NCBI GenBank assembly: GCA_025359915.1 | Contig: JANYDE010000131.1 | Coordinates: forward strand, 1 to 36,809 | Length of the DNA: 36,809 nucleotides | Reading direction: 5' to 3' | DNA from: Chamaesiphon sp. 336R_metabinner_41 | GTDB lineage: Bacteria > Cyanobacteriota > Cyanobacteriia > Cyanobacteriales > Chamaesiphonaceae | Shown: piece by piece, positions 7,255-31,453 of the stretch | How the letters are laid out: each line of letters opens with the position of its first letter | Position numbering within the stretch: position 1 is the stretch's first letter | Program-made: the position numbers and the translations under genes | Notes under the pieces: generated by a model | Databases searched by the model: none | Seen by the model: the letters and a program-made list of their open reading frames with translations, nothing else | What the model was told of the DNA's origin: nothing

Positions 7255-7274
7255 AACAGATGGCTACTGTTTAT

Positions 7275-8534: not shown

Positions 8535-8616
8535 CTAGTACTAAGCGGCATAAGTTTAGCCACCATCAGATCCCTCCATCTCCCCTCTAAAATACTAGCT
8601 TTATTGCCGCCTAGTA
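8535..8616. mobile_element. Short MITE-like element, left arm ctagtactaagcggc
   Basis: The arm 8539-8549 pairs with 8606-8616 (10 of 11 bases), bounding a roughly 80-base element with a pyrimidine-rich middle. The left 30 bases (ctagtactaagcggcataag, then tttagccacc) match the complement of 32504-32533 closely, so the element occurs twice in the window. It sits in the roughly 300-base gap between the PRC-barrel and S9 peptidase genes, where I see nothing else except the presumed PRC-barrel promoter. Confidence 0.65.
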
Positions 8617-8621
8617 ATAAA

Positions 8622-10547: not shown

Positions 10548-10723
10548 AATGACGATCTATGTAAAGTTTGACAGCGACCGTCAATACAATTTAGCACGCA
10601 CGATCGGGTAAATAGTACCAACAAACAACTCGCTTACCAAGATTCTACCCGATCGAGTAGATGTCTTCTACCGTATATTGGCGGGAACTCAAATATCCCT
10701 CGGATGCCAGTGCCATCCCAATA

Positions 10724-10826
10724 CGGTAAGCGCAAAGCGCAGGCTGTGCTTACGGCAGGCTAACGCCAACGCCAACGGTTAGACCTATCTATTTATAGTT
10801 TCCGCCTAATAAAAACGCCGCTTCAC
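10724..10826. repeat. Intergenic palindromic repeats
   Basis: gtaagc (10726-10731) pairs with gcttac (10748-10753). The following ggcaggctaacgcc(aacgcc) stretch is a repeat type common in cyanobacterial intergenic DNA. A second piece, aataaaaacgccgcttca (10808-10825), matches 2444-2461 with one base difference. These fill much of the roughly 300-base gap between the S9 peptidase start and the GH10-like gene end; no gene is seen there. Confidence 0.65.
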
Positions 10827-10851
10827 GCCCGCTCTCTAGGGATTAAGCTGC

Positions 10852-11925: not shown

Positions 11926-12027
11926 CAGTTTAAAAATACTATACTATTACTTAGCGTAGATCCAGGGTACACTCGGATTAGTCTTTATATATTGGGGAAA
12001 GATGTGGGTAAATTCATTTGGTGAGAC

Positions 12028-14775: not shown

Positions 14776-14846
14776 GCGGTAGATGAAATATCAATTTGTT
14801 TGATTTTATCAGATTTTTATGAACCTGAAATTACCTGTGGCAATTG

Positions 14847-15617
14847 CTACCTAATAGCTACCGGATCGAGCCACCGCAGCATCTCCCGTTTGAGTTGATG
14901 TAAATCGCGATGAACTTCTTGCTTAATCCATTGACCGATCGCATCAAAAGGTGTGAAAATTTGGGGCGTAAGTTGTACTTGGAAATCCTGTCCTAATGGG
15001 GTGAGGTGACTACCATTAATGATCTGAGTCGAAACCATTTTTGGATCGATGTTCTTGAGCGTTTGACTGAGGGTATATGATTGATCGATCGTGTCGTTAC
15101 TAAATTTGACAATTAGATTGCGGCGCACATCATAATAATCAGCAATTAGATCGAGGGTTTCTTGGGGACTAGGCGAAAATTCCACATTGAATTCTCGCGG
15201 CATTTGACCCATCAACGGTACGGCATCGCGAGCCGAGAAATTATTAAATGAAATTAAAATATTCCCCTCTCTGTTGACATCATACATACTGCCGATCAGT
15301 AGCTGAAGCTTGCAGCCCATACTATGTCCAACCCCATAAATAGGCAAGGAATCAGTTGGTAAATACTGACGATCTTGAAGGAATTCTAAGATATCTTCAA
15401 AACTGTTGTAGACATCACTAGCGATCGATCGATGGTCGAAAGTATTAAGAAATGGTGTCGCAATAATTGCATACCCTTGCTGTGCCAAATCTTCCAACAA
15501 CAATCGATAAGTAATATGTGGAGCCGCTGCCACAAATGCACCACCTAAAAAATGCACCACCGCACGCGGTTGACGCGGAATATAAACCCAATTACCAGAA
15601 ATTTCTTGCCAATCCAT
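14847..15617 (-). CDS. DUF1350 alpha/beta-hydrolase-like protein
   Basis: The protein has 256 residues from the ATG at 15617 (MDWQEISGNWVYIPRQP). The frame is open further upstream, but those 34 residues are a translation of a tandem repeat (SPSPPVSPSP), so the internal Met is preferred. HFLGGAFVAAAPHITYRLLL near 27 and IYGVGHSMGCKLQLL near 100 are typical of DUF1350, an alpha/beta-hydrolase family of cyanobacteria and plastids. The G-H-S-M-G elbow offers a nucleophile serine, and GSHLTP near 215 a possible histidine. No experimentally known role comes to mind. Confidence 0.85.
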   Translation of the reverse strand: MDWQEISGNWVYIPRQPRAVVHFLGGAFVAAAPHITYRLLLEDLAQQGYAIIATPFLNTFDHRSIASDVYNSFEDILEFLQDRQYLPTDSLPIYGVGHSMGCKLQLLIGSMYDVNREGNILISFNNFSARDAVPLMGQMPREFNVEFSPSPQETLDLIADYYDVRRNLIVKFSNDTIDQSYTLSQTLKNIDPKMVSTQIINGSHLTPLGQDFQVQLTPQIFTPFDAIGQWIKQEVHRDLHQLKREMLRWLDPVAIR

Positions 15618-15621
15618 TTTT

Positions 15622-15756
15622 GAGGGAGGAGGGGGGATGGTGAGACAGGGGGACGGTGAGACGGGGGGACTGGGGGACGGTGAGACTGGGGGACTGGGGG
15701 ACTGGGGGTGAATATTCACTATTCACTATCCCCTATCCCCTATCCCCTATCCCCTA
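15622..15756. repeat. Two repeat blocks: ggactggg/gacggtga units and a tatcccc heptamer array
   Basis: From 15622 to 15710 runs a degenerate G-rich tandem repeat. From 15727 to 15756 about four copies of tatcccc follow, and the last copy runs into the CTA that is the stop codon (complement) of the zinc-ribbon gene at 15754-15756. Confidence 0.85.
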
Positions 15757-16053
15757 AAAGTAGCCAAAAAAGCTATCATAATCCAGATCGCTATCCCCAC
15801 CATTATACGGAGTTCGATCTGCAAATTCATTGGGGGTGCGGTCATCACTCCATCCCCACCAGTCCTTCCCGCATTCGCAGTGATAAAATTCTTGCCACTT
15901 CCGTTTGCGATTTTCGAGCAAGATTGGCGAACGACGATTGATCCAAGCTGCGGTAGCTGCGGTAGAGCCAGCATGACAATTGGGACAACAAAATCCTTGT
16001 GCGTGAGTTGCGAGTGCTGTCCAGTCTGGTGGGGTAGGGCTAAAAGCTTCCAT
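15754..16053 (-). CDS. Small zinc-ribbon protein
   Basis: The protein has 99 residues. Cys22, Cys23 and Cys26 in CCPNC, with Cys59 and Cys61 in YHCECGKDWWGW, form a split zinc-ribbon, and the spacer contains a basic helix (LENRKRKWQEF). The C-terminus is acidic and aromatic (GGDSDLDYDSFFGYF). An overlapping reading frame in another phase (15747-16091) is Pro/Ala-rich and lacks this logic, so I chose this one. Codon phase and the clean Cys pattern support it as real. Function unknown; a nucleic-acid or protein-binding role is only a guess. It lies upstream of the DUF1350 gene on the same strand. Confidence 0.75.
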   Translation of the reverse strand: MEAFSPTPPDWTALATHAQGFCCPNCHAGSTAATAAWINRRSPILLENRKRKWQEFYHCECGKDWWGWSDDRTPNEFADRTPYNGGDSDLDYDSFFGYF

Positions 16054-16264
16054 GTATAATCAGTCGGTGTGCGTGTAGTGTCTACGGGCAAAAAAAGGTG
16101 TGCAAAAATCGTTTAACTGAGCTAAAAATAACAATTTAGAGCGATAGTTACATGAGCTACAGACAAACACTTTAGCTTCACTATAATAAGTAGTTTAACG
16201 AGGATCTACCGAACCTAGTTAAATTGGTACGATCTAAACAGACAAAATAATTAAATAAAATTCT

Positions 16265-16729
16265 ATGACAACTTTTGATACCCTCGCAGATGCGCCCGAT
16301 CTTACCGCTGATGACTATCTCGTCGTCGGTGTGGCTACCTGCTTCTTCCGTGACGATGATGGGGTACACGAACTCAAAGTCATCGAACCCATCCCTTCCT
16401 CTGCCTGGGAAGCTCTCCTCAAAGGCATTCCTACCTCCTACGAGATCGCCGCCGCTACCACTCTCGGCGCACTGATTGCTGGAGAGACACCTCAGATTCC
16501 CGCTAATTTCCCCGCTGACTGTCAACTAGGTAACGAATTTGCCTACCGTTGTATCGCCTCAGCTCGTACTTACAAGCGTCGCCAAGAAGCTACAATGCAT
16601 CTCGCGCAAGGTGATAGCTACAGCAGCTTCAATTATTCTACCGAACGGAAACGGGTACTCAATGCCGATCGAGTTGTCACCAAAGACGATAATGTCAAAC
16701 AGCACGCCTATACTCACCAGAAGCTCTAG
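16265..16729 (+). CDS. Conserved hypothetical protein, small and soluble
   Basis: The protein has 154 residues and begins MTTFDTLADAPDLTADDYLV. The middle (VVGVATCFFRDDDGVHELKV, then PIPSSAWEALLKGIPTSYEI) is compact and acidic. The C-terminal third is basic and rich in Tyr, Arg and Lys (YRCIASARTYKRRQEATMHL, ERKRVLNADRVVTKDD). I think such proteins are conserved in cyanobacteria but do not recognise a family name. The bases before the ATG are AT-rich (aataattaaataaaattct), with no clear ribosome site. A 13-bp hairpin follows 55 bases after the stop. The gene is monocistronic. Confidence 0.7.
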   Translation: MTTFDTLADAPDLTADDYLVVGVATCFFRDDDGVHELKVIEPIPSSAWEALLKGIPTSYEIAAATTLGALIAGETPQIPANFPADCQLGNEFAYRCIASARTYKRRQEATMHLAQGDSYSSFNYSTERKRVLNADRVVTKDDNVKQHAYTHQKL

Positions 16730-16783
16730 TTTTAGCTGATTTTTAAAAAAGATTGACCCTCAAACATAGACACAGTGACACTC

Positions 16784-16816
16784 ATATCCCTGACTTCTCG
16801 GATAAGTCAGGGATAT
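16784..16816 (+). terminator. Hairpin terminator after the 154-residue protein gene
   Basis: atatccctgactt (16784-16796) pairs perfectly with aagtcagggatat (16804-16816) around a 7-base loop. There is no long U-run directly after it, so termination strength is uncertain. Confidence 0.65.
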
Positions 16817-16868
16817 TGCCGCTCATTTGTGAATAGATTAAACTAAGTCTAGCTAACTAAGATCGAAA

Positions 16869-17117
16869 ATGAAATTAGTCAACATCCATCAAGCAAAAAC
16901 TACTCTTTCTCAGCTCTTAGAATCTGTACAAGCTGGAGAAGAGATAATTATTAGCAAAGTTGGGAAAACATTAGCGCGGCTCATTCCCTATCCTCTTGAA
17001 AAAAAGCCTTGAACTCCTGGCTACTGGAAAGGTCAAGTGAAAATGGCTGATGACTTTGAAGATCCACTTCCTCCAGAGATTTTAGCTGGTTTTATGGGAA
17101 TGGATGATGAAGTTTAG
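16869..17117 (+). pseudogene. Phd/YefM-family antitoxin broken by an in-frame TGA
   Basis: ATG 16869 opens a frame beginning MKLVNIHQAKTTLSQLLESV, then GEEIIISKVGKTLARLIPY, the standard Phd/YefM N-terminal DNA-binding domain. It stops at TGA 17010-17012 after 47 residues. The same frame then continues without interruption as TPGYWKGQVKMADDFEDPLP, then PEILAGFMGMDDEV, to TAG 17115-17117. That is the usual toxin-binding tail of antitoxins paired with PIN-domain VapC toxins. A single CGA-to-TGA change at the KKP-R-TPG junction would explain the stop. The full length would be 82 residues. No toxin gene follows; comF starts 15 bases later. Confidence 0.85.
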
Positions 17118-17131
17118 GACTATTTGAGAAC

Positions 17132-17806
17132 ATGTTTAAGTCTTGGCAACCATTACTAAATCAGGCTCTAAATCTCTTTCTCAAGCCAAATTGCCCAATG
17201 TGCGATCGAACCGCATCAGCGGTATTCTGTAAGTATTGTCAACGTCAAATCCAAGACTGTCAATTACCACATCCCGATTTATATTGGCAGGGAGATTTAC
17301 CTTTATTTGCCTGGGGTAAATATGAAAGTTCGGTCAAGCAATCGATCGGGAAGTTAAAGTATGATGGTCATAGATCGATCGGTCATCTATATGGCGAATG
17401 GCTAGCAAATAGTTGGCAAAAATCTATACCATCAGGTTCAGCAACTAAATTAGTCGTCATCCCAATTCCCCTGCATCCTGAAAAACTGGCGAGTAGAGGT
17501 TTCAATCAAGCCGAACTAATTGCGCGGAGTTTTTGTCAAATTACAGGTAATAAATTAGATCTAAGTTTACAGCGAAATCGATCGACAGTCGCTCAATTTG
17601 GACTATCAAAATCAGCACGCCAAGAAAATGTCGCAGGTGCTTTTACACTGGTGAATTCAGCTTTCAAGCCTGGTGATACAGTGTTATTGATCGATGATAT
17701 TTACACCACTGGTGCAACCGTTCGATCTGCTGCCGCAGTCATTCGATCGATCCAAGTCAAAGTCTGTGGAGTCGCAGTAATTGCCACAGGGAGAATTGAT
17801 AAGTAA
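17132..17806 (+). CDS. comF: ComF-family amidophosphoribosyltransferase-like protein
   Basis: The protein has 224 residues. The N-terminal zinc-finger-like cluster CPMCDRTASAVFCKYC (about 21-36) is followed by a type I phosphoribosyltransferase fold with the PRPP-binding loop VLLIDDIYTTGAT near 186-198. ComF proteins support DNA uptake and recombination in competent bacteria, and many cyanobacteria need comF for natural transformation. The ATG at 17132 lies 15 bases after the end of the broken antitoxin. It is convergent with the second GH10-like gene across about 25 bases. Confidence 0.88.
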   Translation: MFKSWQPLLNQALNLFLKPNCPMCDRTASAVFCKYCQRQIQDCQLPHPDLYWQGDLPLFAWGKYESSVKQSIGKLKYDGHRSIGHLYGEWLANSWQKSIPSGSATKLVVIPIPLHPEKLASRGFNQAELIARSFCQITGNKLDLSLQRNRSTVAQFGLSKSARQENVAGAFTLVNSAFKPGDTVLLIDDIYTTGATVRSAAAVIRSIQVKVCGVAVIATGRIDK

Positions 17807-17831
17807 TAAGTAATAACCTATTCCCTTTCCC

Positions 17832-19379
17832 CTATTTCAATTGACAAGAACTGCGATAATAATCTAACTCAGGTTCTTGCCAAGAAAAGGCAAAATGACT
17901 GATTGAATTAATCTGCGGGAGATTTCGACGAATACCATCCATTTGATCCTCCAGCGATGGACGACCTTCGGCTGGTTTACCCCAGGTTCCAGCGAGCGCG
18001 GGAACCACATTCGTCGTAGGTGGAGCGAAGCTCACAACGCGGCGGATTTGATCGACGATACAATTACTGCGGTTGCAAGTAGCATAAGCCATTGGATGCC
18101 ATTCATTTGTCGCAAAACGATCCCAAGGTTGCAACCGCGAATCATAGCCTCTGCGCCCAATTGGTTGATTGGCTTCAGGAAAGAATACCGAACCAGATTT
18201 AAGTCGTTGTTGCTCTACAGGTGCGACAGCTTTTTGCAAGAAATTAACAACCCCATCACTAGCATGAGCGAGGGTAAGTTGCCATAAGTCCCATTCAATC
18301 CAGGGGAATTTATCCTCGTAGGACATGTTAATTTCGTCTGCAAGGGGGGTGCGACCCTGCCACAGGGGGGAAACCTCATTGGGGTAGAGTTTATCCACCT
18401 CCTTGAGGTCATTAATCGTGATGGTACCCTTATTGAGAAATCGATCGATCAGGTCTGTACCTTTGCTATTTTGAGCTAAGGCGGCGAGCGTTTGTCTAGA
18501 TTCGTCGCTATAAATCCAGAGATCTTTGACTTGACTCGCGATCGATTGTCCGCCTTGTCCGCGTGGAAACCGAATATAATCAAACAATACGCCATCGGGA
18601 CGACGACGAACGACTTCGCGCACGAGTTTATCGTAATCAGCGCGAGCTTTGTCGCTGTAAGGATCGACAAATAAGACCGAACTGGCATCGCCATCAGTAG
18701 ATTTTTGGAAGCCTTCTTCACCTGCAAATAAAGTGGTCTCCCCACGACCATTAATTGCTACGGCTGACTGTCCTTCTGGGGTCACGCCATAGTCTGGCCC
18801 GAAATTGAGACTATACATCCAAGCATAGACCTTTAAGCCCCGTTCGTGGCCTTTTTGGATGGAGTCGGCAAGTAAATCGGTCTTTTCGGTGCCCCTTTGA
18901 GTCAGCACGGAATTCCAGGCGGTGGTATTACCCGTTCGAGGTAATAATGCTTTACCGTAGAATGTGGCGACATAGACTTGGTTATAGCCTTTGTTGACCA
19001 TGTGGTCAAAGATTTCTTCTAAAGCTCCAGGGCGAGTATCACAAGGGTACAGCCTTACCCAAATTGATTGGTTTTTTAGCCAACTCTTTTGCCTACATTG
19101 TTGGACATAATTGAGATGCTTTTTGACAATCTCGCTGTATTGCATTTGGCTAGCTCTATCGCCTTTTTGAGCAGCTACTCGCAACACATTCTTGGCACTG
19201 ACTTCTGCTGGCAAAATTTGACAATAATCTGCTGGTTGTGCCGTACTAGGTGGAGCATAGTAGCCTTGTCCGACAATGCTACTGAGCGTGAATGTGCCTG
19301 CTATTAATTTTTGATGCCAATTGTGACGATTCGGTGCCGATAGTAAGGTAGGAAAATGTTGGTGTAGCTTACAATCCAT
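17832..19379 (-). CDS. GH10-like family 10 glycosylhydrolase, long form
   Basis: The protein has 515 residues from the ATG at 19379 (MDCKLHQHFPTLLSAPNRHN); an ATG 69 bases further upstream is possible. A weak hydrophobic stretch near residues 24-42 (KLIAGTFTLSSIVGQGYYA) may be a signal peptide or anchor. The barrel begins SIWVRLYPCDTRPGALEEIF, with GYNQVYVATFYGKALLP, LKVYAWMYSLNFGPDYG and PDGVLFDYIRFPRG; the last is the GHL10/DUF4015 hallmark strand. ATNEWHPMAYATC near 430 carries more conserved residues. The substrate is unknown, probably a polysaccharide. It is a second, distinct relative of the protein at 10852-11925. Confidence 0.82.
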   Translation of the reverse strand: MDCKLHQHFPTLLSAPNRHNWHQKLIAGTFTLSSIVGQGYYAPPSTAQPADYCQILPAEVSAKNVLRVAAQKGDRASQMQYSEIVKKHLNYVQQCRQKSWLKNQSIWVRLYPCDTRPGALEEIFDHMVNKGYNQVYVATFYGKALLPRTGNTTAWNSVLTQRGTEKTDLLADSIQKGHERGLKVYAWMYSLNFGPDYGVTPEGQSAVAINGRGETTLFAGEEGFQKSTDGDASSVLFVDPYSDKARADYDKLVREVVRRRPDGVLFDYIRFPRGQGGQSIASQVKDLWIYSDESRQTLAALAQNSKGTDLIDRFLNKGTITINDLKEVDKLYPNEVSPLWQGRTPLADEINMSYEDKFPWIEWDLWQLTLAHASDGVVNFLQKAVAPVEQQRLKSGSVFFPEANQPIGRRGYDSRLQPWDRFATNEWHPMAYATCNRSNCIVDQIRRVVSFAPPTTNVVPALAGTWGKPAEGRPSLEDQMDGIRRNLPQINSISHFAFSWQEPELDYYRSSCQLK

Positions 19380-19647
19380 AGATGGTATCGATCGAAGGTC
19401 GCAGGTAGATTGGTTCAGCCTCTCAGTATAAAGGAGAAGCCAATCCACAGATCGACTTCTCCCTCAACTCTTTTAGTTCAGACAGCTAATTTAGATTTAA
19501 TGTTCCATTTGCGAATTTCTACGTTCGTAAATTGCGAAGTCTCTCAGCGTAGATATTTGGTAGATATAAATTGCCTAAAACCTAAACATTAGGAATTGCT
19601 TAAACTACTTCTACAGCTATCTCCTAAGCCAAGAACGAGAGACTAAA

Positions 19648-20049
19648 TCATGATCCCCGTTGCAATGCTAACTCAATCTGCTTGAATTTTTCTGTTAGAC
19701 TAGTTCTCAGTTTTTCTGGTAAAGGACGATTTGGGTACGCCGCGTAGTGAGCGGCGAGGGAGTTGAGCGCAGTCCGCATACTTGTAAAAGAACTAAGTTT
19801 TGTCAGTGCGGGATCCTGACGGTAGCGGGAAGAAAAGTCATTAATATTCACCCGCGCCAAAGACTGCGCGGCTGGTTTGTCTGGGGAGTCATCGGGTAAA
19901 TCCAGCACAGCTTTCATACTATTGAGGACAGTCATGGTATCCTGACGATAATTTCCGACTAGTCCACCAGAGCTAGCAGAACAGCCAGCCAAGCCAACCA
20001 CAACCACTAGTACTAAAGCAATTAACTGCGACCACAGACGTTTAAACAT
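19648..20049 (-). CDS. psb27: Photosystem II assembly/repair lipoprotein Psb27
   Basis: The protein has 133 residues. A signal peptide with lipobox LAGC (Cys23) is followed by a four-helix-bundle domain that starts NYRQDTMTVLNSMKAVLDLP, the typical Psb27 opening. Psb27 binds the lumenal side of CP43 in immature PSII and keeps the oxygen-evolving subunits off until the manganese cluster is built. Length and the lipid anchor are as expected for cyanobacteria. The roughly 200 bases between it and the GH10-like gene start contain no recognisable gene. Confidence 0.93.
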   Translation of the reverse strand: MFKRLWSQLIALVLVVVVGLAGCSASSGGLVGNYRQDTMTVLNSMKAVLDLPDDSPDKPAAQSLARVNINDFSSRYRQDPALTKLSSFTSMRTALNSLAAHYAAYPNRPLPEKLRTSLTEKFKQIELALQRGS

Positions 20050-20106
20050 GGTTTGTAATGTAAAAATTTAAAATTCCAAAATTACTATCCATCCTAGCGT
20101 GAATTA

Positions 20107-20242
20107 GGGGATAGGGGATAGGCTTTAGGGGAAAGGGGAACAGTGAACAGTGAGTTTTCTCTCCCAGTCTCCCCCAACTCCCCAACTCCCCAACTCCTTC
20201 ACTCCCTCACACCCCATCTCCCATCTCCCATCTCCCATCTCC
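20107..20242. repeat. Heptamer blocks (ggggata, cccaact, cccatct)
   Basis: ggggata copies (20107-20122) and then cccaact and cccatct copies (about 20160-20242) fill the region just before bioY. The last cccatct copy ends three to four bases before the bioY ATG, so the ribosome-binding region is itself repeat DNA. Confidence 0.85.
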
Positions 20243-20245
20243 GAC

Positions 20246-20863
20246 ATGACTAGAATTGCTCGTCCTTACATTTTAGCGTGGACGATTGTTGGCTTATTTC
20301 TAACGATCGGTGCCAACTTTATTTCAGCTTATGCGGTTAGTTCTCCATTACAATGGATTGGAGCCGGAATTACTGCTTATCCATTGGGATTTAAGTGTCA
20401 AGTTGGTGCGGTATTATTAGTAAGTTGTTTGGGTGGTAGAATTGCGGGAGTATTAGCGCAAGTTGCTTATTTATTGCTAGGATTAGTATGGCTAAAAATT
20501 TTCAATGATGGCGGTAGTTTTGAGTATATTCAGAAACCTGCTTTTGGTTATTTACTAGCATTTATACCTGGATCTTGGGTATGTGGACAGCTTGCTTTTA
20601 AGCAATTTTCCTCTAGTAAAACTGTGGTAAAGCCTGAATTAGAGTTCCTAGGATTGAGTTGTTTCTGTGGACTGCTGACGATTCATTTGTTCGGGATTAT
20701 CTATTTGCTTTTCTTTAAGTTGATTAATTCGCACCAATCGATTGATTTCAAATTATTAGATGCGATTATCAATTATTCTGTTTATCCTTTTGGTAGTCAA
20801 TTAGTGCTAGCTTGCGCGGCAACATCAATCGCGTTTGTCTTGCGACGAGTTATGTTTTATTAG
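20246..20863 (+). CDS. bioY: Biotin transporter, BioY S-component
   Basis: The protein has 205 residues from ATG 20246 (MTRIARPYILAWTIVGLFLT). The longer open frame from 20150 only translates the heptamer repeat and is rejected. Six or so hydrophobic helices are visible. The region GFKCQVGAVLLVSCLGGRIA, then GVLAQVAYLLLGLVWL, is the conserved BioY segment, and YPFGSQLVLACAATSIAF closes the protein. BioY binds biotin and works alone or with an ECF energising module, which is not in the window. lspA follows after 10 bases, so the two form an operon. Confidence 0.85.
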   Translation: MTRIARPYILAWTIVGLFLTIGANFISAYAVSSPLQWIGAGITAYPLGFKCQVGAVLLVSCLGGRIAGVLAQVAYLLLGLVWLKIFNDGGSFEYIQKPAFGYLLAFIPGSWVCGQLAFKQFSSSKTVVKPELEFLGLSCFCGLLTIHLFGIIYLLFFKLINSHQSIDFKLLDAIINYSVYPFGSQLVLACAATSIAFVLRRVMFY

Positions 20864-20873
20864 TATTCGATCG

Positions 20874-21350
20874 ATGAAGATTAAAAATTATTATTTTTGG
20901 CTGGCGGCAATCGTAAATATCACGATCGATATTATCAGTAAACGTGCAATTGTCGAAATGCTCCAAATTGAGCGAACATCTATTCCATTAATTCCCAACA
21001 TTTTTCATCTTACGTATATCCGCAATCATGGTGCTGCATTTAGCATCCTGCAAGGAAATCCCTTGTTAAGATGGTTGTCTCTGATTGTTAGCTTGATTTT
21101 AATTGCGATCGCAATTGTCAGAACTTTTGATAATATTTGGGAACAATTAGGCTTCGGTCTAATTTTAGCAGGTGCAGTTGGTAATGGGATCGATCGATTA
21201 TTCTTTGATGGCTCTGTTGTTGACTTTATCGATGTCCGAATAATTCATTTCGCTATTTTTAACTGGGCAGATGTATCGATTAATGTAGGTATTATTTGTT
21301 TATTAATTCATAGCTTTATCGATCGACCAAAGCAGTCTATTTTTCGGTGA
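20874..21350 (+). CDS. lspA: Lipoprotein signal peptidase (signal peptidase II)
   Basis: The protein has 158 residues with four hydrophobic helices. It cleaves prolipoprotein signal peptides, such as that of Psb27 in this window, at the lipidated Cys. YIRNHGAAFSI (48-58), GNGIDRL with catalytic Asp107, SVVDFID (114-120) and FNWADVSINVG with catalytic Asp133 are all intact. ATG 20874 is preferred over an upstream in-frame start at 20835 that would overlap bioY. The gene is the second in a bioY-lspA operon. Confidence 0.92.
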   Translation: MKIKNYYFWLAAIVNITIDIISKRAIVEMLQIERTSIPLIPNIFHLTYIRNHGAAFSILQGNPLLRWLSLIVSLILIAIAIVRTFDNIWEQLGFGLILAGAVGNGIDRLFFDGSVVDFIDVRIIHFAIFNWADVSINVGIICLLIHSFIDRPKQSIFR

Positions 21351-21441
21351 ATAGTGATTTGGTGCGTTGCGGCTACCGCCTAACACACCCTACTAATTCT
21401 CGCTAAAAGGTGGATAGTGGATAGTGAATGGTGGATAGTGT

Positions 21442-21530
21442 AACTATCAACTATCAACTATCAACTATCAACTATCAACTATCAACTATCAACTATCAAC
21501 TATCAACTATCAACTATCAACTATCAACTA
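21442..21530. repeat. Heptamer array, unit aactatc (about 12.7 copies)
   Basis: A near-perfect tandem array of period 7 ends three bases before the stop codon (complement 21533-21535) of fabI. The same unit occurs at 24791-24815 and 32565-32585. The array fills the convergent gap with lspA together with a gcgttgcggctaccgcctaa-type repeat at about 21362. Confidence 0.95.
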
Positions 21531-21532
21531 AC

Positions 21533-22309
21533 TTACATTCCAATCGTTTCGTAACCAGCATCTACATAGATAATCTGTCCAGTAATCCCACTTGCAAGAT
21601 CGCTAGCTAAGAAAGCGGCTGCATTACCAACTTCTGTTTGGGTAACAGTACGTTTGAGTGGAGCGACATCTTCAACGTGGTGAATCATATCCAAAATACC
21701 ACCGACAGCCGAAGAAGCCAATGTGCGAATTGGCCCAGCAGAAATCGCATTGACGCGGACATTTTGGGCACCAAATTCTGAGGCTAGATAGCGAACATTC
21801 ATTTCTAAACCAGCTTTTGCAATGCCCATCACGTTATAATTGGGGATTACTTTTACGCCGCCTAAATAAGTAAGCGTGATAATACTTCCACCCTCAGTCA
21901 TTAAATGTTTCGCCGCACCAGCTAACCGAATCAGTGAATAAGCACTAATATCCATCGCCTGGGCGAAACCAGCGCGAGAAGTCTTGCTAAAATCACCCGA
22001 TAAATCTTCCTTGTTTGCAAAAGCTAAACAGTGAATCAGAATATCAATTCGTCCCCATTTTTCGCCAACTTCTGCAAAAGTTCTATCTATCTGCTCATCA
22101 TCTTGAACATTGAGCGGAAGATAAATACTCGGATTCAGCGGTGCAACCAATTCTTCAACCTTGCGCTCCATCTTCCCCCGTTCGTCAGGTAGATAGGTAA
22201 TCCCAATATTAGCACCAGCCGCGTGCAGTTGTTGGGCGATGCCCCAGGCGATCGATCGATTGTTGGCAATTCCAGTTACTAATGCGTTTTTTCCGCTTAA
22301 ATTTAACAA
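21533..22309 (-). CDS. fabI: Enoyl-[acyl-carrier-protein] reductase (NADH)
   Basis: The protein has 258 residues of the short-chain dehydrogenase fold. The nucleotide motif VTGIANNRSIAWGIAQ (about 11-26) is the FabI version of the Rossmann glycine loop. The catalytic region around residues 145-165 reads TLTYLGGVKVIPNYNVMGIA, then KAGLE, with the Tyr-x6-Lys of FabI (Y158 and K165 region). It performs the last reduction of each fatty acid elongation cycle. The start MLNLSGKNALVTG is standard. It is divergent from ntcA. Confidence 0.95.
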   Translation of the reverse strand: MLNLSGKNALVTGIANNRSIAWGIAQQLHAAGANIGITYLPDERGKMERKVEELVAPLNPSIYLPLNVQDDEQIDRTFAEVGEKWGRIDILIHCLAFANKEDLSGDFSKTSRAGFAQAMDISAYSLIRLAGAAKHLMTEGGSIITLTYLGGVKVIPNYNVMGIAKAGLEMNVRYLASEFGAQNVRVNAISAGPIRTLASSAVGGILDMIHHVEDVAPLKRTVTQTEVGNAAAFLASDLASGITGQIIYVDAGYETIGM

Positions 22310-22370
22310 AGGTAATGATTACTCCATCTTAACTCGCACGGCTAATGATATCAGTTGCCAGTTACCTTTG

Positions 22371-22408
22371 TCCCATCTCCGAACTCCCATCTCCCATCTC
22401 CCATCTCA
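22371..22408. repeat. Heptamer array, unit cccatct
   Basis: About four copies lie in the 320-base divergent region between fabI and ntcA, some 50 bases upstream of the NtcA box. The unit is the same as that upstream of bioY. Confidence 0.85.
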
Positions 22409-22459
22409 TTCGTAGTCTATGATACAAAAAACTATTGACAAGTCAGATTAAGTATTTAG

Positions 22460-22500
22460 GTATTCTGTAATACCGTTGAATAAATGCGATCGCCTAGACT
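22460..22500 (+). promoter_or_regulatory. NtcA-activated promoter of ntcA (GTA-N8-TAC plus -10 box)
   Basis: GTA (22460-22462), 8 bases, TAC (22471-22473) is a perfect NtcA consensus site within the larger palindrome ggtatt-ctgt-aatacc (22459-22474). The -10 hexamer TAGACT (22495-22500) fits TAN3T, with 21 bases between TAC and TAG. This is the class II NtcA geometry, with the site centred near -41.5, and predicts a start near 22508. A HIP1 octamer (22486-22493) lies in the spacer. NtcA autoactivation under nitrogen limitation is established in other cyanobacteria; for this strain it is inferred. Confidence 0.8.
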
Positions 22501-22629
22501 TGAGTAAACACGCCAATTAATTTGGGTTTGTCAGAACTGAGATCTTGAGATCCTCAGTCAATTGGGTTCATATCTTGTTCGAGTCTGAAATTATAAGTCC
22601 AAATTATTTTAAGTGAGTGTAAAGTTGAG

Positions 22630-23307
22630 ATGGTGATGATGCAAGATAAACCGATCGCTACGATTTTTCAGCAAATGGCTGGGGGAGCCTTCCCGCCTGT
22701 GATTGAGACATTTGAGCGGAATAAAACTATTTTCTTTCCTGGCGATCCTGCTGAACGGGTCTATTTTCTCACGAAAGGGGCGGTAAAGTTGTCTCGCGTG
22801 TACGAAGCGGGCGAAGAGATTACGGTGGCTCTCCTGCGCGAAAATAGCGTGTTTGGAGTGCTATCTTTGATTACGGGGAATAAGTCTGACAGGTTCTATC
22901 ATGCAGTTGCATTTACATCTGTAGAGTTATTATCAGTGTCGATCGAGCAATTTGAGAAGGCTCTCAAGGAAAATCCCGAATTATCCTGGATCATGCTCAG
23001 AGGTTTATCTTCGCGGATTCTGCAAACGGAGATGATGATCGAAACATTGGCGCATCGAGATATGGGTTCACGGCTGGCTAGTTTCTTGCTGATTCTCTGT
23101 CGAGATTTTGGCGTACCTAATGGGAATGGGATCACGATCGATCTTAAATTATCACATCAAGCGATCGCCGAAGCAATTGGTTCGACTCGCGTGACGGTGA
23201 CTAGATTACTCGGTGATTTACGCGATGAAGAAAATCAGGTAATCTCGATCGACAAGAAGAAAATCACCGTTCATAATCCAGTCGCGTTGAGTCAGCAGTT
23301 TAATTAG
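22630..23307 (+). CDS. ntcA: Global nitrogen regulator NtcA
   Basis: The protein has 225 residues of the CRP/FNR family. It activates nitrogen-assimilation genes when 2-oxoglutarate is high. The effector domain contains [20 protein letters not shown], then [20 protein letters not shown], then [12 protein letters not shown]. The C-terminal HTH reads [20 protein letters not shown] (about 175-194). These match NtcA rather than other CRP members. ATG 22630 is the natural start; an ATG nine bases later is possible. The leader is about 120 bases if transcription starts near 22508, and includes an imperfect inverted repeat ctgagatct-tg-agatcctcag (about 22538-22558). Confidence 0.96.
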
Positions 23308-23430
23308 GGTTTAAGCTTGAGGGGATTCGATCGATCGAAGATGACGCGAAGGAGATCGATTAGCTATGATATACATTCTGGGACACCGTATCAATTGGCG
23401 CAATCCCTAACTTATTTTTACTAGACTAGA

Positions 23431-24714
23431 ATGACAAAAACTAACTTAGAATTTTTAGCAGAAACAGATGCCGCGATCGCCAGTTTAATTGGTTCCGAGC
23501 TAGGTCGTCAACGGACACACCTCGAATTAATTGCTAGTGAGAACTTCACCTCGGCGGCGGTAATGGCGGCGCAGGGTTCGGTTTTAACTAATAAATATGC
23601 GGAAGGCTTACCCAGCAAGCGTTATTATGGTGGGTGTGAATTCGTCGATGAGATAGAACAAATTGCGATCGATCGAGTCAAGCAATTATTCGGTGCTACT
23701 GCTGCAAACGTTCAGCCTCACTCTGGCGCACAAGCAAACTTTGCTGTCTTCCTCGCGCTGCTCAATCCTGGCGACAAAATCATGGGGATGGACTTATCCC
23801 ACGGTGGACATCTTACCCACGGTTGTCCGGTAAGTGTCTCTGGTAAATGGTTTGAGCCTCATTACTATAACGTCAACAAAGAAACTGAGCAACTAGATTA
23901 CGACCAAATTCGCGACTTAGCCAAACAGCACAAACCAAAAATGCTGATTTGCGGTTACTCGGCATATTCTCGCACGATCGACTTCGCTAAATTCCGCGAG
24001 ATTGCTGATGAAGTAGGTGCATTCCTGATGGCGGATATTGCCCACATCGCCGGATTAGTCGCCACCGGACATCATCCCAATCCTATCCCTTACTGTGACG
24101 TAGTTACAACCACGACCCACAAAACCCTCAGAGGTCCCCGTGGTGGTTTAATTATGACCCGTGATGCAGAATTAGGCAAAAAATTTGATAAAGCCGTCTT
24201 CCCTGGTACCCAAGGTGGACCATTAGAACACGTAATTGCGGGTAAAGCAGTTGCCTTCGGCGAAGCTCTCCAGCCCGCCTTTAAGACCTATTGCGGCAAC
24301 GTGATCGCCAATGCCCAAGCTCTGGCTACTCAACTCCAACAACGGGGCTTTAAAATCGTTTCTGGTGGGACTGACAATCATCTCATGTTAGTCGATCTCA
24401 GATCGATCGGCATGACTGGAAAAGTAGCAGATTTACTAGTCAGCGGCGTAAATATCACAGCTAATAAAAATACCGTACCCTTCGATCCCGAATCTCCATT
24501 CGTCACCAGCGGTTTGCGCCTCGGTTCTCCCGCGATGACAACTCGTGGAATGGGTACGACTGAATTTACAGAGATTGCCAATATCATCGCCGATCGACTC
24601 CTAAGTCCCGAAGATGATACCGTAGCAAATAACTGTATCCGTCGCATCGCCACCCTCTGCGAAGCCTTCCCACTATATCCTCATCTGAGTATGCCTGTTC
24701 CAGCTTTGGTTTAG
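23431..24714 (+). CDS. glyA: Serine hydroxymethyltransferase
   Basis: The protein has 427 residues. It interconverts serine and glycine with tetrahydrofolate, feeding one-carbon metabolism and photorespiratory glycine use. [20 protein letters not shown] near 30, the PLP-lysine segment [14 protein letters not shown] near 225-238 and the C-terminal [17 protein letters not shown] are the family hallmarks. Length is standard. The 123-base gap after ntcA shows no terminator, so it may have its own promoter. A gggagtt heptamer array begins right after the stop. Confidence 0.97.
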
Positions 24715-24818
24715 ATGGGAGTTGGGAGTTGGGAGTTGGGAGTTGGGTTTCGCGCTGCTCTACCCAACCTACTACAATCCTATATTCGCCATCAACTATC
24801 AACTATCAACTATCAACT
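24715..24818. repeat. Heptamer arrays gggagtt (24715-24748) and tatcaac (24791-24818)
   Basis: The first array starts at the glyA stop and the second ends inside the stop codon of the DUF151 gene. Between them is a gttgggt...acccaacctac palindrome like that at 7227-7254. The convergent gap is therefore entirely repeat DNA. Confidence 0.9.
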
Positions 24819-25307
24819 AACTTGCCCACCATTGCGAATGAGATCGTCAGGGCGTAGATTGGAGACAAAACTGCGGAAAGCTTGACGCTCTTGTTCGTCA
24901 GCATCACGATCTACGGGAATAGACGCATCAGCGATAACTTCTTCGATTACCCAAATTGGTGCTTTAGTCCGAATGGCGATCGCAATAGCGTCACTAGGAC
25001 GAGCATCGATTTCCTTGAGGACACCATTGTTATTAATCACGATCGAAGCATAAAACGTGTTATCTTGCAACGAATTAATCGTAACTCGATCGACCTTGAT
25101 ATCACAGCTATCAAAGATATTGACCATCAGATCGTGAGTAAATGGTCTAGGTGGTGTTTGCTTTTCTAAAGCATTGACAATTGCCTTAGCTTGTTCCTGA
25201 CTGATATAAATAGGTAAAGCGCGACGATCGGCAGCATCTTTGAGTAAGATAATTGGACTGCGAGATACAGCGTCTAATGCAATACCAGCTACTTTCATTT
25301 CGATCAT
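24813..25307 (-). CDS. Bifunctional nuclease family protein (DUF151)
   Basis: The protein has 164 residues. The DUF151 core is intact: SPIILLKDAADRRALPIYIS near 17-36, then ASIVINNNGVLKEIDARPSD, then AIAIAIRTKAPIWVIEEVI. Plant members of this family show both DNase and RNase activity, which gives the name; bacterial roles are unclear. The stop codon TGA (complement of 24813-24815) lies inside the tatcaac heptamer array, so the array may have defined the C-terminus. It is divergent from ribE, with about 370 bases between. Confidence 0.88.
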   Translation of the reverse strand: MIEMKVAGIALDAVSRSPIILLKDAADRRALPIYISQEQAKAIVNALEKQTPPRPFTHDLMVNIFDSCDIKVDRVTINSLQDNTFYASIVINNNGVLKEIDARPSDAIAIAIRTKAPIWVIEEVIADASIPVDRDADEQERQAFRSFVSNLRPDDLIRNGGQVS

Positions 25308-25383
25308 GGTGCTTCCTTTGTCGTTATTTACTGATGAGGGTGGTTGAGAGCGTTAAAATTTAATATAGAAGTTGAAAGCTGAT

Positions 25384-25560
25384 TTAGCGAAAAGTGCGGT
25401 CTTGGGGTCTCCCCTGTCTTGTCTTGACGCACACAACTGGGAGGTTTCCTCCCAGTCGATGCGTCGCTGTCTCACCTTTTTTGACGGGGAACCCGTCCAA
25501 AGGTGAGCCGCTGTCTTGTCGTTTTCTTATATCTCCGACAGGAGACATAAAAACGCCGCA
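25384..25560. repeat. Composite element of three successive hairpins
   Basis: Left end: gaaaagtgcggtcttgggg (25390-25408), also found inverted at 4761-4779. Hairpin A: actgggagg (25436-25444) with cctcccagt (25448-25456), enclosed by gacgc/gcgtc. Hairpin B: ctcaccttt (25471-25479) with aaaggtgag (25499-25507), enclosing gacggg/cccgtc around GAA. Hairpin C: tctcc/ggaga at 25532-25545 within cttgtcgttttcttat...ataaaaacgccgc, the same frame as the palindrome at 2411-2456. It fills the DUF151-ribE divergent gap; small open frames here are artefacts. Confidence 0.75.
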
Positions 25561-25677
25561 AGTAGAGCATCTTTTCAAGAAAGTATAATAATCTTCAACT
25601 TTAGTGATTTGTGCAGCTATATATCAAGGATGGCTTACGAAATGCTCGATCGATAATAGTAATTTGACTGAAAAAAG

Positions 25678-26471: not shown

Positions 26472-27515
26472 CTAACCACCCAAAAACTTCACCAATGCTG
26501 TCAATTTATCCCAAGCAACACCACTATCCATCACCGTTTGAGCGATCGAGATTCCTTCTTTATGCGCCCCTACAGGTACAATTCCCGCCACCTGTAGAGC
26601 CAACCCAGCATTCAGCGCAACCACATCCCTTTGTACCGAAGTCCCCTTACCCTGCAAGATAGCAGTCAAAATCGCGGCATTTTCAGCAACACCACCACCT
26701 CTAAGTGCGATAATTGGTGCAGGTGTAAGTCCTAATTCTACCGGATCGATACTAGTGAGTTTTACCTCTCCATTAGTCAAAATTGCCAAGTCTGTCAGAT
26801 CGCCCAACCCCGCTTCATCAAGACGTTCCCGTCCATGTACAACAATTGCCTGTTGAGTACCCAAAATACCTGCGGCGGTAGCAATAGTCTCCAATAAGTA
26901 AGGTGTACCGCTTCCAATCACTTGTCCCGTCGGACGTAATGGATTGACAAGTGGACCAAGTAAATTGAATACTGTCCGAACCTTCAATTCTTGCCGTAAG
27001 GGTGCAACCGCCTTCATCGCTGGATGCCAACCCGCCGCAAATAGAAAAGTAATCCCCACTTCATCCAAAGCTGCCTTTACCCGTGCTGGTGGAGCCATCA
27101 ATTTCACACCCAGAGCCTCTAATACGTCCGCAGAACCAACAGGACTAGATGCCGACCTGCTACCATGCTTCGCTACTTTGACCCCTGCTGCTGCGGCAAC
27201 AAATGCCGCTGTGGTAGAGATATTGAACGTCGAGGCACCATCGCCACCTGTCCCGCAGGTATCGATAACCGGAACAGCATGATCGATCATTGGAGCTTGT
27301 AATACTTGTGCCATCCCCGCCAATTCGGGGGCGGTGATTTTCTTGGCTTCCATTGCGATTAAAATCGCCCCAGATAGAACGGGAGAGATTTCCCCGTTTA
27401 ACCAACCCTGCATAAGTGTGGTGGCTTGTTGTTGACTCAGAGATTGCTTGTCTAGCAGTTGTTGGAGTAGCTGCGACCAATTTGTGGATTCGGAAGGGAT
27501 GGCGGATGTGCTCAT
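26472..27515 (-). CDS. trpD: Anthranilate phosphoribosyltransferase
   Basis: The protein has 347 residues from the ATG at 27515 ([20 protein letters not shown]); ATG 27527 or GTG 27554 are alternatives. It transfers phosphoribosyl from PRPP to anthranilate, the second step of tryptophan synthesis. [17 protein letters not shown] near 85-101 is the PRPP/anthranilate loop. [20 protein letters not shown] near 115 follows, and [20 protein letters not shown] is the other signature. No other trp gene is nearby. The upstream neighbour is the GTPase-like gene at 27566, divergent and only about 50 bases away. Confidence 0.95.
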
Positions 27516-27565
27516 AGATTTGGGCATAATACTAGCAATTAGATTATCCACCACTAGGTGAGTAA

Positions 27566-28792
27566 ATGCGACTTATTGCGGCACAACCCAAACGTATTTA
27601 CCTCAATTTGTCCGATCGAATACTGGATTTCAATCGTCCTCATATTGGTAATATTATTGATACGCGAGGATTGGATTTAGCCACTAAAGATCGGAGAGAT
27701 TTGGCTTATTATATCCGCGAGACCGAAAACTCAATTTGTATTTTCACCGAAAGGTTCGCAGCAGCACCAGCAAATGTCATTCAGATTATTGGTAAATATT
27801 TAACCCCGACAGCAAAAGATATCAATACAAAAGTCTCCCTGCTAGTCATGCCCCGAAAAGGTGAACCAGAAAAAGTCATCGGTGCCGATGGACAAGCTGT
27901 GGAAGATCTAGATCGGGGAATAGCACTAAGAAAAGCTAATATTGATAATGTATTTACCAATGAAAATATTAATTTTCCGTTTAATGACATCTTGTTCTAT
28001 GATGCTTTGCAAGGATATTTAGGTGATGGGAGTTTAGATCGATCGGATGAATCAGTAGACATCGATCTAGATCGTCAGCGGGTATTTGCAGAAATCGATC
28101 GAGTTATTATCGATCGCGAACAGCAATTAGAAAAAGAAATTCAAATTCTTGCCCACCAAGTCGGACAGATTGAATCGGGCGATAATTTTGCCCCACATGA
28201 GGATGACATCATCATCATTACTAAACAGAAAATTAGTGAATTTAGTAGTTTAAATTTAGGAAGCAATAATTTCTCAACAGACTATGTAGAGATGCTGCCC
28301 GCTCATCATTGTGTTCTTCGGGCTACCAATAACCGTTATGGACAATATGAATTGAGAGATATTGATATTTATTTTAATGGACGATACCTAGCCGAAAATT
28401 TAATTCGTCAAAGTACTCAGAATTTCAAAGCTGAGATTTTGAAAGTCGTTGATTTCGTTGAAGCTGAAATCAGTCATGGCTCAACACTATCTCCAGCAAT
28501 GCAGAGATTATGTAGCCAAATCAATGAAAATTATGAAGATTTAGCTGTCAATCTCGGTGTAGAAATTGAAACTATGTTAAGCGATCGGATTCTCGCACCT
28601 CAAGATTATGATGAGTCTATATTCTGGCAACAAGCGATCGATCGATGGGGTCAAGGTTCGGGATATAAAGTGGATGTGTTAGCTCTATATATTCAACAGG
28701 TAGGTGGAATTGATGCGATGTTTGCTAAACTAATCCAAGCAGCTTGGATTGATAGAATTATCCAGCTAATCTTAACATTTTTAGGCGACTAA
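27566..28792 (+). CDS. GTPase-like protein lacking the P-loop region
   Basis: The protein has 408 residues. Residues 28-37 read [10 protein letters not shown], like the beta3/DxxG (G3, Walker B) step of a P-loop GTPase. [10 protein letters not shown] and [20 protein letters not shown] follow, in the place of later G-domain strands. There is no Walker A (GxxxxGK[ST]) before or after, and TAA (27563-27565) directly precedes the ATG, so the normal first 40-60 residues of a G domain are absent. The middle (about 180-215) is charged and helical. The C-terminus has a moderately hydrophobic stretch, [13 protein letters not shown]. This could be a 5'-truncated gene or a natural half-domain. Function unknown. 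Confidence 0.6.
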
Positions 28793-28812
28793 TGGGGAGT
28801 AAACAGGGAAAT

Positions 28813-28845
28813 AGATCCCCGACTTCTTCAAGAAGTCGGGGATCT
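28813..28845. terminator. Bidirectional hairpin terminator between GTPase-like and pepN-type genes
   Basis: agatccccgacttctt (28813-28828) and aagaagtcggggatct (28830-28845) are perfect complements with at most one unpaired base at the centre. In RNA the tip opens to a small loop. It lies between convergent genes. Confidence 0.85.
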
Positions 28846-28858
28846 CGTCGCCTACAAG

Positions 28859-31453
28859 TTATATTGTTGACTGTTTACTTTTAGCCTCCAAGTTTTCCAA
28901 CCGACTCTTCAATTCCTGATTAGTTTTCTTAACTTCTTCCAACTCCTCCCGCAATTGCTTGACGGCTTTATCCGAACCGATTTTCTTCTGTACCTTTTGA
29001 ACGCCTTCATCCGCCATCCGTTTGACACGCCCGTCGGGACTTTGACTGGCTAATCCTTGTAATACGCCGATCGCTCTGACGGTTTCCATCTGGCTCAAGG
29101 CGTTGACTACCGACACTTGAGTCAGGAAGAATGACTCGCAAGAAAGTTCGGCTAGTTTCTCGATGATGACGGTCAGATTTGCCTCTGATTGACCTTGAGA
29201 AATCGCTCCAAGGGCACGAATGGAGGGTAAACGCAGTGGTTGAGGTACGCCAGGTTTGACGTACTCTAGGATGGTATTTAGGGCGGTGGGTGAATCGGTC
29301 ATTTTGGCTAAACCGCCGATTGCGCCAGCGCGGACGACTTCACCCCAGCCAGCGCGGGTATTGAGGACATTGGTGAGCAGGGTAATTACTTCTTCCTGTT
29401 TATCTTTGAGGCTAGCGGTTGTCATCCCACCGAGAGCGCGACAGGCGGCGGCTTCGACGTAGTAGCTTTCGTCGCCTGTTTCGACTAGTTGTTTAATTGC
29501 GGCGTAGGTTTGGGGTGTTTTAATATTAGCTAATTCATCGACAATCGCTTTCCGCACAAATGCATCTTCGTCGCCGATTTCAGCGATCAGATTGGTTGCG
29601 GAGATGTCGAGTTTGATTTTAGCTAGTTGTTGTGCGGCTTCGAGGCGAACAGCCCAGAATTCTTCGGTGGCGAGACATTCAGTTAGCGCGGTGACGGCTT
29701 CGAGGTTGCCTTTTTTGGCGATCGCTTCCGTAGCATAGATCCGCGAAATTGGGTCTGGATCTGACTTGAGCTGTGCTTTGAGTTCGGGTAAGGGGTATTC
29801 GAGGCTGACGGTTTTGAGATAGTTATTACCGACATCAAAGCTGATGAAGTCGGGTTTTGTTTCGAGGGGGAAGTAGAGAACTTGTTCTTTTTCGTAGATC
29901 CGAATTTTGGTGACTTTGAGATCGGCTACGCCATCTTTAATATATCCAAATCCAATCGGAATTTTCAGATCGAACAAGTCATTTGTGAGAGTGTGAATTC
30001 CTTCTTTGGCTTGAGTTTGGGTAACAGTCAGTTTAGCTAATTTACTATCGCCATCCCAACTATAAGCAACCTTATAATCTGGATGTCCGCCGCGATAGAC
30101 ATATTGATCGAATAAGAAGGCTAAATTACGTCCGGTGGATTTATCGATCGCGCGTAGAAGATCGATCGTTTCTACCGTCTTATGAGCATTATCTCGAACG
30201 AAAGTATGGACGAATCGATCAAATAATTCATCACCTAATTCTGTCCGAATCATATGATAGACACATGCCCCCTTTTCATAGAGATGTCGATCGTATAGCT
30301 CGATCGCTTCTCGATAGATATTCGTCACAATTGGCCGACGATATCGACTGCTATCTTCACTCAGATAGCTCTGCGCTTCACCTAATAAATAATAAGCCGC
30401 TTCATCCCGATCATATTCATGTTCTGCCCACAATACTTCACAGTAAGAAGCCATCCCTTCCTTAATCCAAGCGTGCGACCAATGCTTAATTACCACCAAA
30501 TCGCCAAACCATTGGTGCGCCAATTCATGGGCGACTAAGAACTCGGTATTAAAATTATCGATCGCTGCCCGTTCATCCAATAAACACCGATCCATTAATA
30601 ATGTTGTCGAAGTATTTTCCATCCCTCCGAAAATGAAATCAGCGACGCAGACTTGAGCGTACTTAGGAAACGGATAAGGATAGCCAAACTTCTCGCTGAA
30701 AAACTCAATCATCTCAGGAGTTTTGCCCATACTCAGTTTGGCTGATTCTTCAAATCCTTTTTCCACATAATAGGTGACAGGCTTGCCCTTCCATTCATCA
30801 GCAATCTCCGCAAACCGCCCCACTGCTAAAGTCATCAAATAAGTAGGATGAATCTCCTTTTGTAACCAGTGATAAACCTTCTCCTTGCCGACTATCTCAG
30901 TACCAACTAATTCACCATTAGAAACAGCAATAAAATCTTCAGATACTCGTACCTTAATCTCTGAAGTTGCTAATTGTCCAGGATAATCAAAACAGGGGAA
31001 CCAAAACCGCGAATCCTCATCCTCTCCCTGCGTCCAAACCTGCGTCGGTTTATTGGGATAATGTTCATCAGGCTGAATAAAATACAACCCCCGCTGCGGC
31101 TTCTCCACCCCATAATCAATCGCAACTTTCAACACCTTCCCCGTCACCACATCCAGCTTCAGCGGAATATGTAGCAATTCCCCATCATAATTAAACTCAT
31201 GACTGGTACCGTCAATTTCCACCCCCTGAATATTGAGATTCACCGCATCCAGCGTCAGCGAATCAATCCCACTCCGCACCGGATTGAGAGAGATCGTACA
31301 ACTCCCCGCGAAACTCTGATTCGGGATATCCAGCGTCAAATCCAGACAAATATGCTCGACCTGTCCGGGTCGATCGGGATTATAATGAGGGCGCGAGCCA
31401 GGTAGTTGAAATGATTTGTGTCCGTTGCTCTCATCAAGATGGCTGTAAGGCAT
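28859..31453 (-). CDS. M1-family zinc aminopeptidase with HEAT repeats
   Basis: The protein has 864 residues. An N-terminal beta domain (about 30-220) precedes the catalytic domain with the substrate motif GGMEN (about 276-280, the GAMEN variant) and zinc motif HELAH (309-313) with Glu332 about 18 residues on. All ligands are present, so it should be active. Residues about 550-830 form HEAT-like helical repeats (AVTALTECLATEEFWAVRLE, AAACRALGGM), and the last 35 form a coiled coil (LREELEEVKKTNQELKSRLE). The HEAT and coiled-coil tail differs from the classic PepN C-terminal domain. It probably trims peptides in the cytosol. It is divergent from the DUF433 gene. Confidence 0.9.
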   Translation of the reverse strand: MPYSHLDESNGHKSFQLPGSRPHYNPDRPGQVEHICLDLTLDIPNQSFAGSCTISLNPVRSGIDSLTLDAVNLNIQGVEIDGTSHEFNYDGELLHIPLKLDVVTGKVLKVAIDYGVEKPQRGLYFIQPDEHYPNKPTQVWTQGEDEDSRFWFPCFDYPGQLATSEIKVRVSEDFIAVSNGELVGTEIVGKEKVYHWLQKEIHPTYLMTLAVGRFAEIADEWKGKPVTYYVEKGFEESAKLSMGKTPEMIEFFSEKFGYPYPFPKYAQVCVADFIFGGMENTSTTLLMDRCLLDERAAIDNFNTEFLVAHELAHQWFGDLVVIKHWSHAWIKEGMASYCEVLWAEHEYDRDEAAYYLLGEAQSYLSEDSSRYRRPIVTNIYREAIELYDRHLYEKGACVYHMIRTELGDELFDRFVHTFVRDNAHKTVETIDLLRAIDKSTGRNLAFLFDQYVYRGGHPDYKVAYSWDGDSKLAKLTVTQTQAKEGIHTLTNDLFDLKIPIGFGYIKDGVADLKVTKIRIYEKEQVLYFPLETKPDFISFDVGNNYLKTVSLEYPLPELKAQLKSDPDPISRIYATEAIAKKGNLEAVTALTECLATEEFWAVRLEAAQQLAKIKLDISATNLIAEIGDEDAFVRKAIVDELANIKTPQTYAAIKQLVETGDESYYVEAAACRALGGMTTASLKDKQEEVITLLTNVLNTRAGWGEVVRAGAIGGLAKMTDSPTALNTILEYVKPGVPQPLRLPSIRALGAISQGQSEANLTVIIEKLAELSCESFFLTQVSVVNALSQMETVRAIGVLQGLASQSPDGRVKRMADEGVQKVQKKIGSDKAVKQLREELEEVKKTNQELKSRLENLEAKSKQSTI

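Follow-up and report, generated by a model that had tools for sequence, protein, structure and literature searches.

The window, by which we mean the whole stretch of 36,809 nucleotides that was analysed, contains a 408-residue open reading frame lying between a trpD-like and a pepN-like gene, with the following features.

26472–27554, minus strand: trpD-like gene, with Glycos_transf_3 and Glycos_trans_3N domains, divergent from the frame; one match in its own genome at E ≤ 1e-50
27566–28792, plus strand: 408-aa frame, probable C-terminal remnant of a P-loop protein of about 675 aa (open reading frame and homology)
27566–27586, plus strand: MRLIAAQ, seven start residues without homology; the ATG and the bases up to 27571 match the trpD flank of genome G392 (GAGTAAATGCGA), and the other 15 bases match neither side
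27571–27587, no strand: left junction, trpD flank/GTPase-like sequence (DNA and protein homology limits)
27587–28788, plus strand: stretch homologous to the full-length family, profile positions about 254–661 (profile match)
27653–27676, plus strand: IIDTRGLD, a G3/DxxG-like motif, residues 30–37, the counterpart of VVDTKGLD in full-length copies (alignment)
28788–28807, no strand: right junction, GTPase-like sequence/pepN 3' flank (homology limits)
28859–31453, minus strand: pepN-like M1-type aminopeptidase gene with HEAT repeats (domain matches), convergent with the frame

A preliminary description of this DNA, made from the letters alone, had a protein starting about 30 residues before IIDTRGLD, without a P-loop, with a stop codon before its ATG and with some 400 residues remaining unbroken. 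All of this was confirmed. The motif occupies residues 30–37, a motif scan of the 408-aa frame found no Walker A sequence (GxxxxGK[ST]), an in-frame TAA abuts the ATG (GAG TAA ATG), and residues 7–408 align with a copy in the related genome G387 as a single match of 75% identity with no stop. The frame is present as a single copy in its own genome (4.23 Mb), probably that of a Chamaesiphon-type cyanobacterium. The protein by itself had no match in Pfam (Dynamin_N included), NCBIfam, PDB or PADLOC, and no relative was found in phage records or viral contigs. A contig search with it returned one relative, a fragment of the G390 type described below, in a Chamaesiphon metagenome-assembled genome. 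The AlphaFold2 model, made from an input of two sequences, had a mean pLDDT of 37.5, too low for any use in judging the fold.

Longer homologues with a P-loop were found in other genomes. In a sample of the phylum, 6 of 386 genomes had a match, that of the window included. Four of the other five copies had frames of 678–692 aa, and the fifth (G376) had a frame of 574 aa, with a stop between it and an N-terminal piece of 105 aa. The window protein was 31–36% identical to these five (single-sequence E values of 2.8e-43 to 2.8e-33) and aligned from about position 254 of 662, from PKRIYLNL onward; its profile match extended over positions 254–661 of 662, with an E value of 1.7e-176 for a profile that includes the window sequence as one row. 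In a sample of the order, matches were found in 26 of 388 genomes. Nine close-type copies were matched end to end without stops, and five more distant ones were uninterrupted, with frames of 627–740 aa that the profile covers in part. Nine copies inside contigs were partial or broken by stops (G000, G390, G376, G658, G663, G664, G167, G199 and G643, the window's included), those of G199 and G643 being very short pieces, and two were cut by contig ends (G387 and G391). In G508 the match was weak (E 9e-4) and fell in a 1324-aa frame; we did not take it for a copy.

A GxxxxGK[ST] P-loop was present in all 14 uninterrupted copies of the order sample, as well as in the three plasmid copies inspected out of 20 plasmid records. 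In an 11-row alignment, the order of motifs from N to C was GxxGxGK[TS]T, a TGxGxTT-like motif, and DTxGxD about 190–220 residues past the P-loop. On this alignment, DTRGLD in the frame is a G3-like motif that a long insertion separates from the P-loop located upstream in the full protein, and the start of the frame falls near the end of that insertion. The alternative that the frame represents a natural, nucleotide-free half-domain, one of the two readings put forward in the preliminary description, would call for a family always starting where the frame starts. Three copies of the genus do show no P-loop half (those of the window, G390 and G387, the contig of the latter ending there), but their 5' ends differ, G387 and G390 carrying about 90–100 more residues upstream of the window's start, which are homologous to each other; moreover, none of the 14 uninterrupted copies found elsewhere begins at this point, all of them starting well upstream and having a P-loop. 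This alternative is therefore hardly credible.

Our preferred reading, to which we give a probability of about 0.86, is that the frame is a gene remnant: a P-loop gene of about 675 residues was probably cut near trpD, and its C-terminal piece was left. The truncation is deduced from copies in other families, an intact N-terminus not being known inside the genus. The full-length gene would have encoded, in succession, an N-terminal P-loop, a TGxGxTT switch-like motif, the long insertion, DTxGLD and a long C-terminal half. The break would have fallen just before DTxGLD, the C-terminal piece now having the trpD flank on one side and that of pepN on the other, and the start codon would have been supplied by trpD's own flank. 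The reading frame would have been kept because the loss is recent in comparison with the time at which these species diverged. If translated, the remnant should neither bind nor hydrolyse nucleotide. The other reading of the preliminary description, a rearrangement next to trpD that cut a dynamin-like or AAA-like gene, thus stands as far as the rearrangement is concerned, with Walker A-containing homologues and both junctions placed, while the likeness to dynamin is weak.

Within the genus, 4 of 9 genomes had a match, the window's own included, and no copy was demonstrated to be full-length. The G387 copy runs for 507 residues up to the end of its contig. The G390 copy lies inside a contig and immediately follows a gene for a HAD-like hydrolase (Pfam); it has no P-loop and also lacks about 250 internal residues. 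Of the G391 copy, 44 residues are present, next to glgC and at the end of a contig. A neighbour of the aldehyde-dehydrogenase family is common to G387 and G390, and the neighbours in the window and in G391 differ. The preliminary description had suggested a search of the genome for the missing Walker A part. No such part was found in the window's own genome with one full-length N-terminus as query, and a 7-row profile gave no credible match in 11 genomes of the family (its own and 10 others), these searches having no positive control from within the genus. The profile had three weak hits (E 0.06, 0.20 and 0.32), which were rejected: the one in G387 is a different small GTPase, and those in G408 and G420 are ABC transporters. 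A related profile (A1) did detect N-terminal pieces as short as 33–39 positions in a different family of the same order. Broken copies are frequent in the gene family, which makes that of the window an ordinary case.

The two junctions can be placed, from the limits of homology, to within about 20 bp each. On the left, G392 is colinear with the window through trpD to 27571, including GAGTAAATGCGA with the ATG of the frame, while homology to the G390 copy begins at 27587, i.e. at codon 8, leaving 15 unmatched bases in between. On the right, homology to the G387 and G390 copies ends at 28788, and homology to the 3' flank of pepN in G388 begins at 28807. The trpD 5' flank as found in G388 and G392 is cut off in the window. 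The listed GTG start of trpD is 11 bp from the frame, compared with 38 and 50 bp for the in-frame ATGs at 27527 and 27515; the homology of trpD in three relatives (L066, L070 and L071) begins at 27515, so that the earlier statement that trpD starts divergently about 50 bases away is a fair one.

Among the genus loci fetched, trpD and pepN were adjacent in the window only. The 5' side of trpD is occupied in G388 by a Phd/YefM–PIN toxin–antitoxin pair and a purL with an intein (Pfam), in G392 by frames similar to those of G388 and by purL, and by other genes in G389 and next to one of G386's two trpD copies. In both G393 and G392, pepN has as its 3' neighbour a radical SAM gene resembling miaB, and other genes take this place in G386, G387, G388 and G389; pepN is at a contig end in G391, and no pepN match was found in G390. 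The synteny of trpD in relatives, another check that had been proposed, is therefore variable, and since the neighbours of both trpD and pepN differ among genomes, gene order around these genes is fluid within the genus.

Several other observations were made on these neighbouring regions. An element upstream of trpD, CTAAGTCTAGCTAAGTAAATATCCTA, is identical in G388 and G392 (L065:4275–4300 and L069:6018–6043), while neither the window nor any other trpD locus that was checked has it; the break also took away this element. The purL frames of the same two loci are about 1,300 aa long (L065:4926–8837 and L069:1001–4855, two Chamaesiphon-type genomes), that of L065 having the intein splicing domain PF14890 at residues 215–675, above cut-off. 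Two trpD-like genes occur in G386 (G386:C1:5402985–5404028 and 1546257–1547279), each with about 80% identity to that of the window. Between the remnant and pepN lies a palindrome, CCCCGACTTCTTNAAGAAGTCGGGG (28817–28841), which has 55 occurrences in the genome when up to one mismatch is allowed, compared with 0 for the reversed control, and is a dispersed hairpin repeat. Seven terminator-like sites were counted in 27300–28900, against a shuffled mean of 1.2, several of them overlapping inside trpD. In G388, trpD and pepN are about 32 kb apart on one contig, which had suggested a circle. We rejected the idea that the 36.8-kb contig arose from a circle or a tandem, as the ends of the window do not overlap and positions 6517–25582 of the G388 contig have no match longer than 80 bp in the window.

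The junction could also be an artefact of assembly, the gene being intact in the strain. The assembly is indeed a draft, with 169 contigs and an estimated contamination of 3.4%. Yet the remnant and both flanks, that of trpD and that of pepN, share one genus type, the N-terminal half was not found in an assembly rated 100% complete, and a second genome, G390, has a copy devoid of the N-terminus inside a contig. We consider an artefact very unlikely.

The preliminary description had seen in the 400 intact residues a hint of retained function, and we compared the constraint on the frame with that on its neighbours. Between the window and G387, dN/dS was 0.149/1.42 (about 0.10) by NG86 and 0.159/1.192 (about 0.13) by YN00, with 0.143/1.236 for trpD and 0.085/0.929 for pepN, these values being rough because dS exceeds 1 and the 7 non-homologous start codons are included. 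Strictly conserved columns were kept at 15 of 16 positions in the window and 16 of 16 in G387 (21/26 vs 22/26 with a laxer cut), and 99 of 227 close-type columns were kept in the window and in G387 alike. Over the parts that it retains, the G390 copy had values of 0.118/1.616 against the window and 0.137/1.29 against G387. As this defective copy has an equally low ratio, a low dN/dS was rejected as proof of function; the ratio neither proves nor excludes present function. Because the gutted G390 copy shows the same low dN/dS, most of the constraint predates the breaks, which look recent.

A ribosome-binding-like sequence, AGGTGA, is present just before the ATG; it lies within the trpD flank and reads AGGGGA in G392. 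The scan for sigma-70-like sites found none from 27300 up to the ATG. The plus strand of 27300–28900 has two, both inside the frame, against a shuffle mean of 4.7. The shortened protein could still be made and be useful, as a P-loop-free binding partner, an inhibitor or an assembly platform. An open frame of 408 codons, a dN/dS close to that of trpD, the AGGTGA sequence and 401 remaining residues whose conserved positions are kept about as well as in G387 are all compatible with this. They are offset by the G390 copy, which indicates that the ratio mostly reflects history before truncation, by the location of both the ATG and the AGGTGA position in the trpD flank, by the scarcity of sigma-70-like sites and by the absence from view of a partner gene beside the frame (see below). 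Retained function is thus unlikely. Somewhat less likely still is the particular case in which the C-terminal half would be kept as a separate protein without a P-loop, able to bind or block intact relatives, or their nuclease partners, brought by plasmids; if true, it would be a domesticated dominant-negative piece of a P-loop/nuclease module. On the preferred reading, that of a remnant, the locus illustrates how a recent in-frame remnant can mimic a new half-domain protein, with a borrowed start codon and a low dN/dS dating from before the break.

The closest known counterparts of the full-length gene belong to an uncharacterised group that we call the cyanobacterial P-loop + HsdR-N family, a name coined in this analysis. 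An example of this family is found on the Pseudanabaena galeata plasmid pPg_01 (WP_281009481.1 and WP_281009480.1, a P-loop protein and an HsdR-N gene), and nearly all of the 401-residue remnant is homologous to the family. The window protein has the C-terminal homology of about 400 residues to this family; in contrast to the family, it lacks about 255 N-terminal positions with the P-loop, as well as the partner gene, and the N-terminal GxxGxGK[TS] is absent from both the frame and the genome. Plasmid P-loop proteins of rhizobia, sphingomonads and enterobacteria, many of them annotated as helix-turn-helix/XRE regulators, are more remote relatives, only 25–29% identical to the full-length query. 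The two that were aligned (Citrobacter and Rhizobium) have the P-loop, TGxG-like, DTxGxD and C-terminal motifs in common with the full-length family; an N-terminal HTH match was found in both proteins scanned, one of them below Pfam's cut-off, and no HsdR-N partner was found alongside the plasmid-type loci L106 and L107. With the dynamin family G domain (PF00350), the likeness is that of a large P-loop protein with a DxxG motif. Dynamin_N matched 2 of 11 family members scanned, the best with an E value of 5.5e-4; both matches fall below Pfam's cut-off. Among PDB profile hits, the best are confined to the FtsY P-loop region. No [NT]KxD was found within 200 residues past DTxG in 10 of 11 rows, the other having one chance-like match. 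The family is called GTPase-like on the basis of its motifs and of weak profile hits, and it would be weakly dynamin-like.

Further information on the possible role of the family was obtained from the genes next to its uninterrupted copies. A gene of the HsdR-N/PD-(D/E)XK type was found directly downstream at all 10 uninterrupted close-type loci (9 genomes and 1 Pseudanabaena plasmid), as well as after the five broken copies checked outside the genus (G376, G658, G663, G664 and G167, with G199 and G643 left out). HSDR_N_2 was above the Pfam cut-off in the two partner genes scanned, and the D...ExK residues were invariant in the seven aligned. No such gene was seen in the ORF lists beside the copies of the window, G387, G390 and G391, and the window frame is followed by pepN instead. 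Hits of the partner profile occurred in all 11 family genomes (E 2.2e-7 to 0.047); they were weak, none was seen next to any of the remnants, and they were not counted as partners.

The uninterrupted relatives would most likely be a nucleotide-driven switch with a PD-(D/E)XK nuclease-like partner encoded beside them. Because of their patchy distribution, plasmid relatives, frequent decay and nuclease-like partner, a defence or conflict module is suggested, and the family may plausibly act in defence against foreign DNA, although PADLOC models support this poorly. The PADLOC-DB defence models gave 0 hits with the window protein; with relatives, they gave mad8 (E 0.0025 and 0.067), LeoBC (0.41) and, in two HTH-type members, HTH_VI (9.4e-9). 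The partner gene had incomplete matches to a part of MTase_I (E 2.5e-9) and to mad2 (E 5.5e-4). The more distant copies have an N-terminal HTH, HTH_31 being found in 4 of 11 members scanned, and one of the 20 plasmid records covers at least 80% of the query. The frame of the window is best read as what a recent truncation left of a P-loop protein that is sporadic, often decayed and possibly related to defence. No published description of the P-loop/HsdR-N gene pair was apparent in a narrow literature search, which does not prove its absence from print. The P-loop protein with its HsdR-N/PD-(D/E)XK gene, unnamed, sporadic, often broken and also found on a plasmid, is a candidate anti-phage or anti-plasmid module. 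In the Pseudanabaena plasmid copy (L104:4884–7595), the P-loop protein and HsdR-N genes follow each other with no gap between their annotated ends, with a UvrD-helicase gene and others upstream and a MazF-type toxin gene after the pair, which makes this region a candidate defence neighbourhood.
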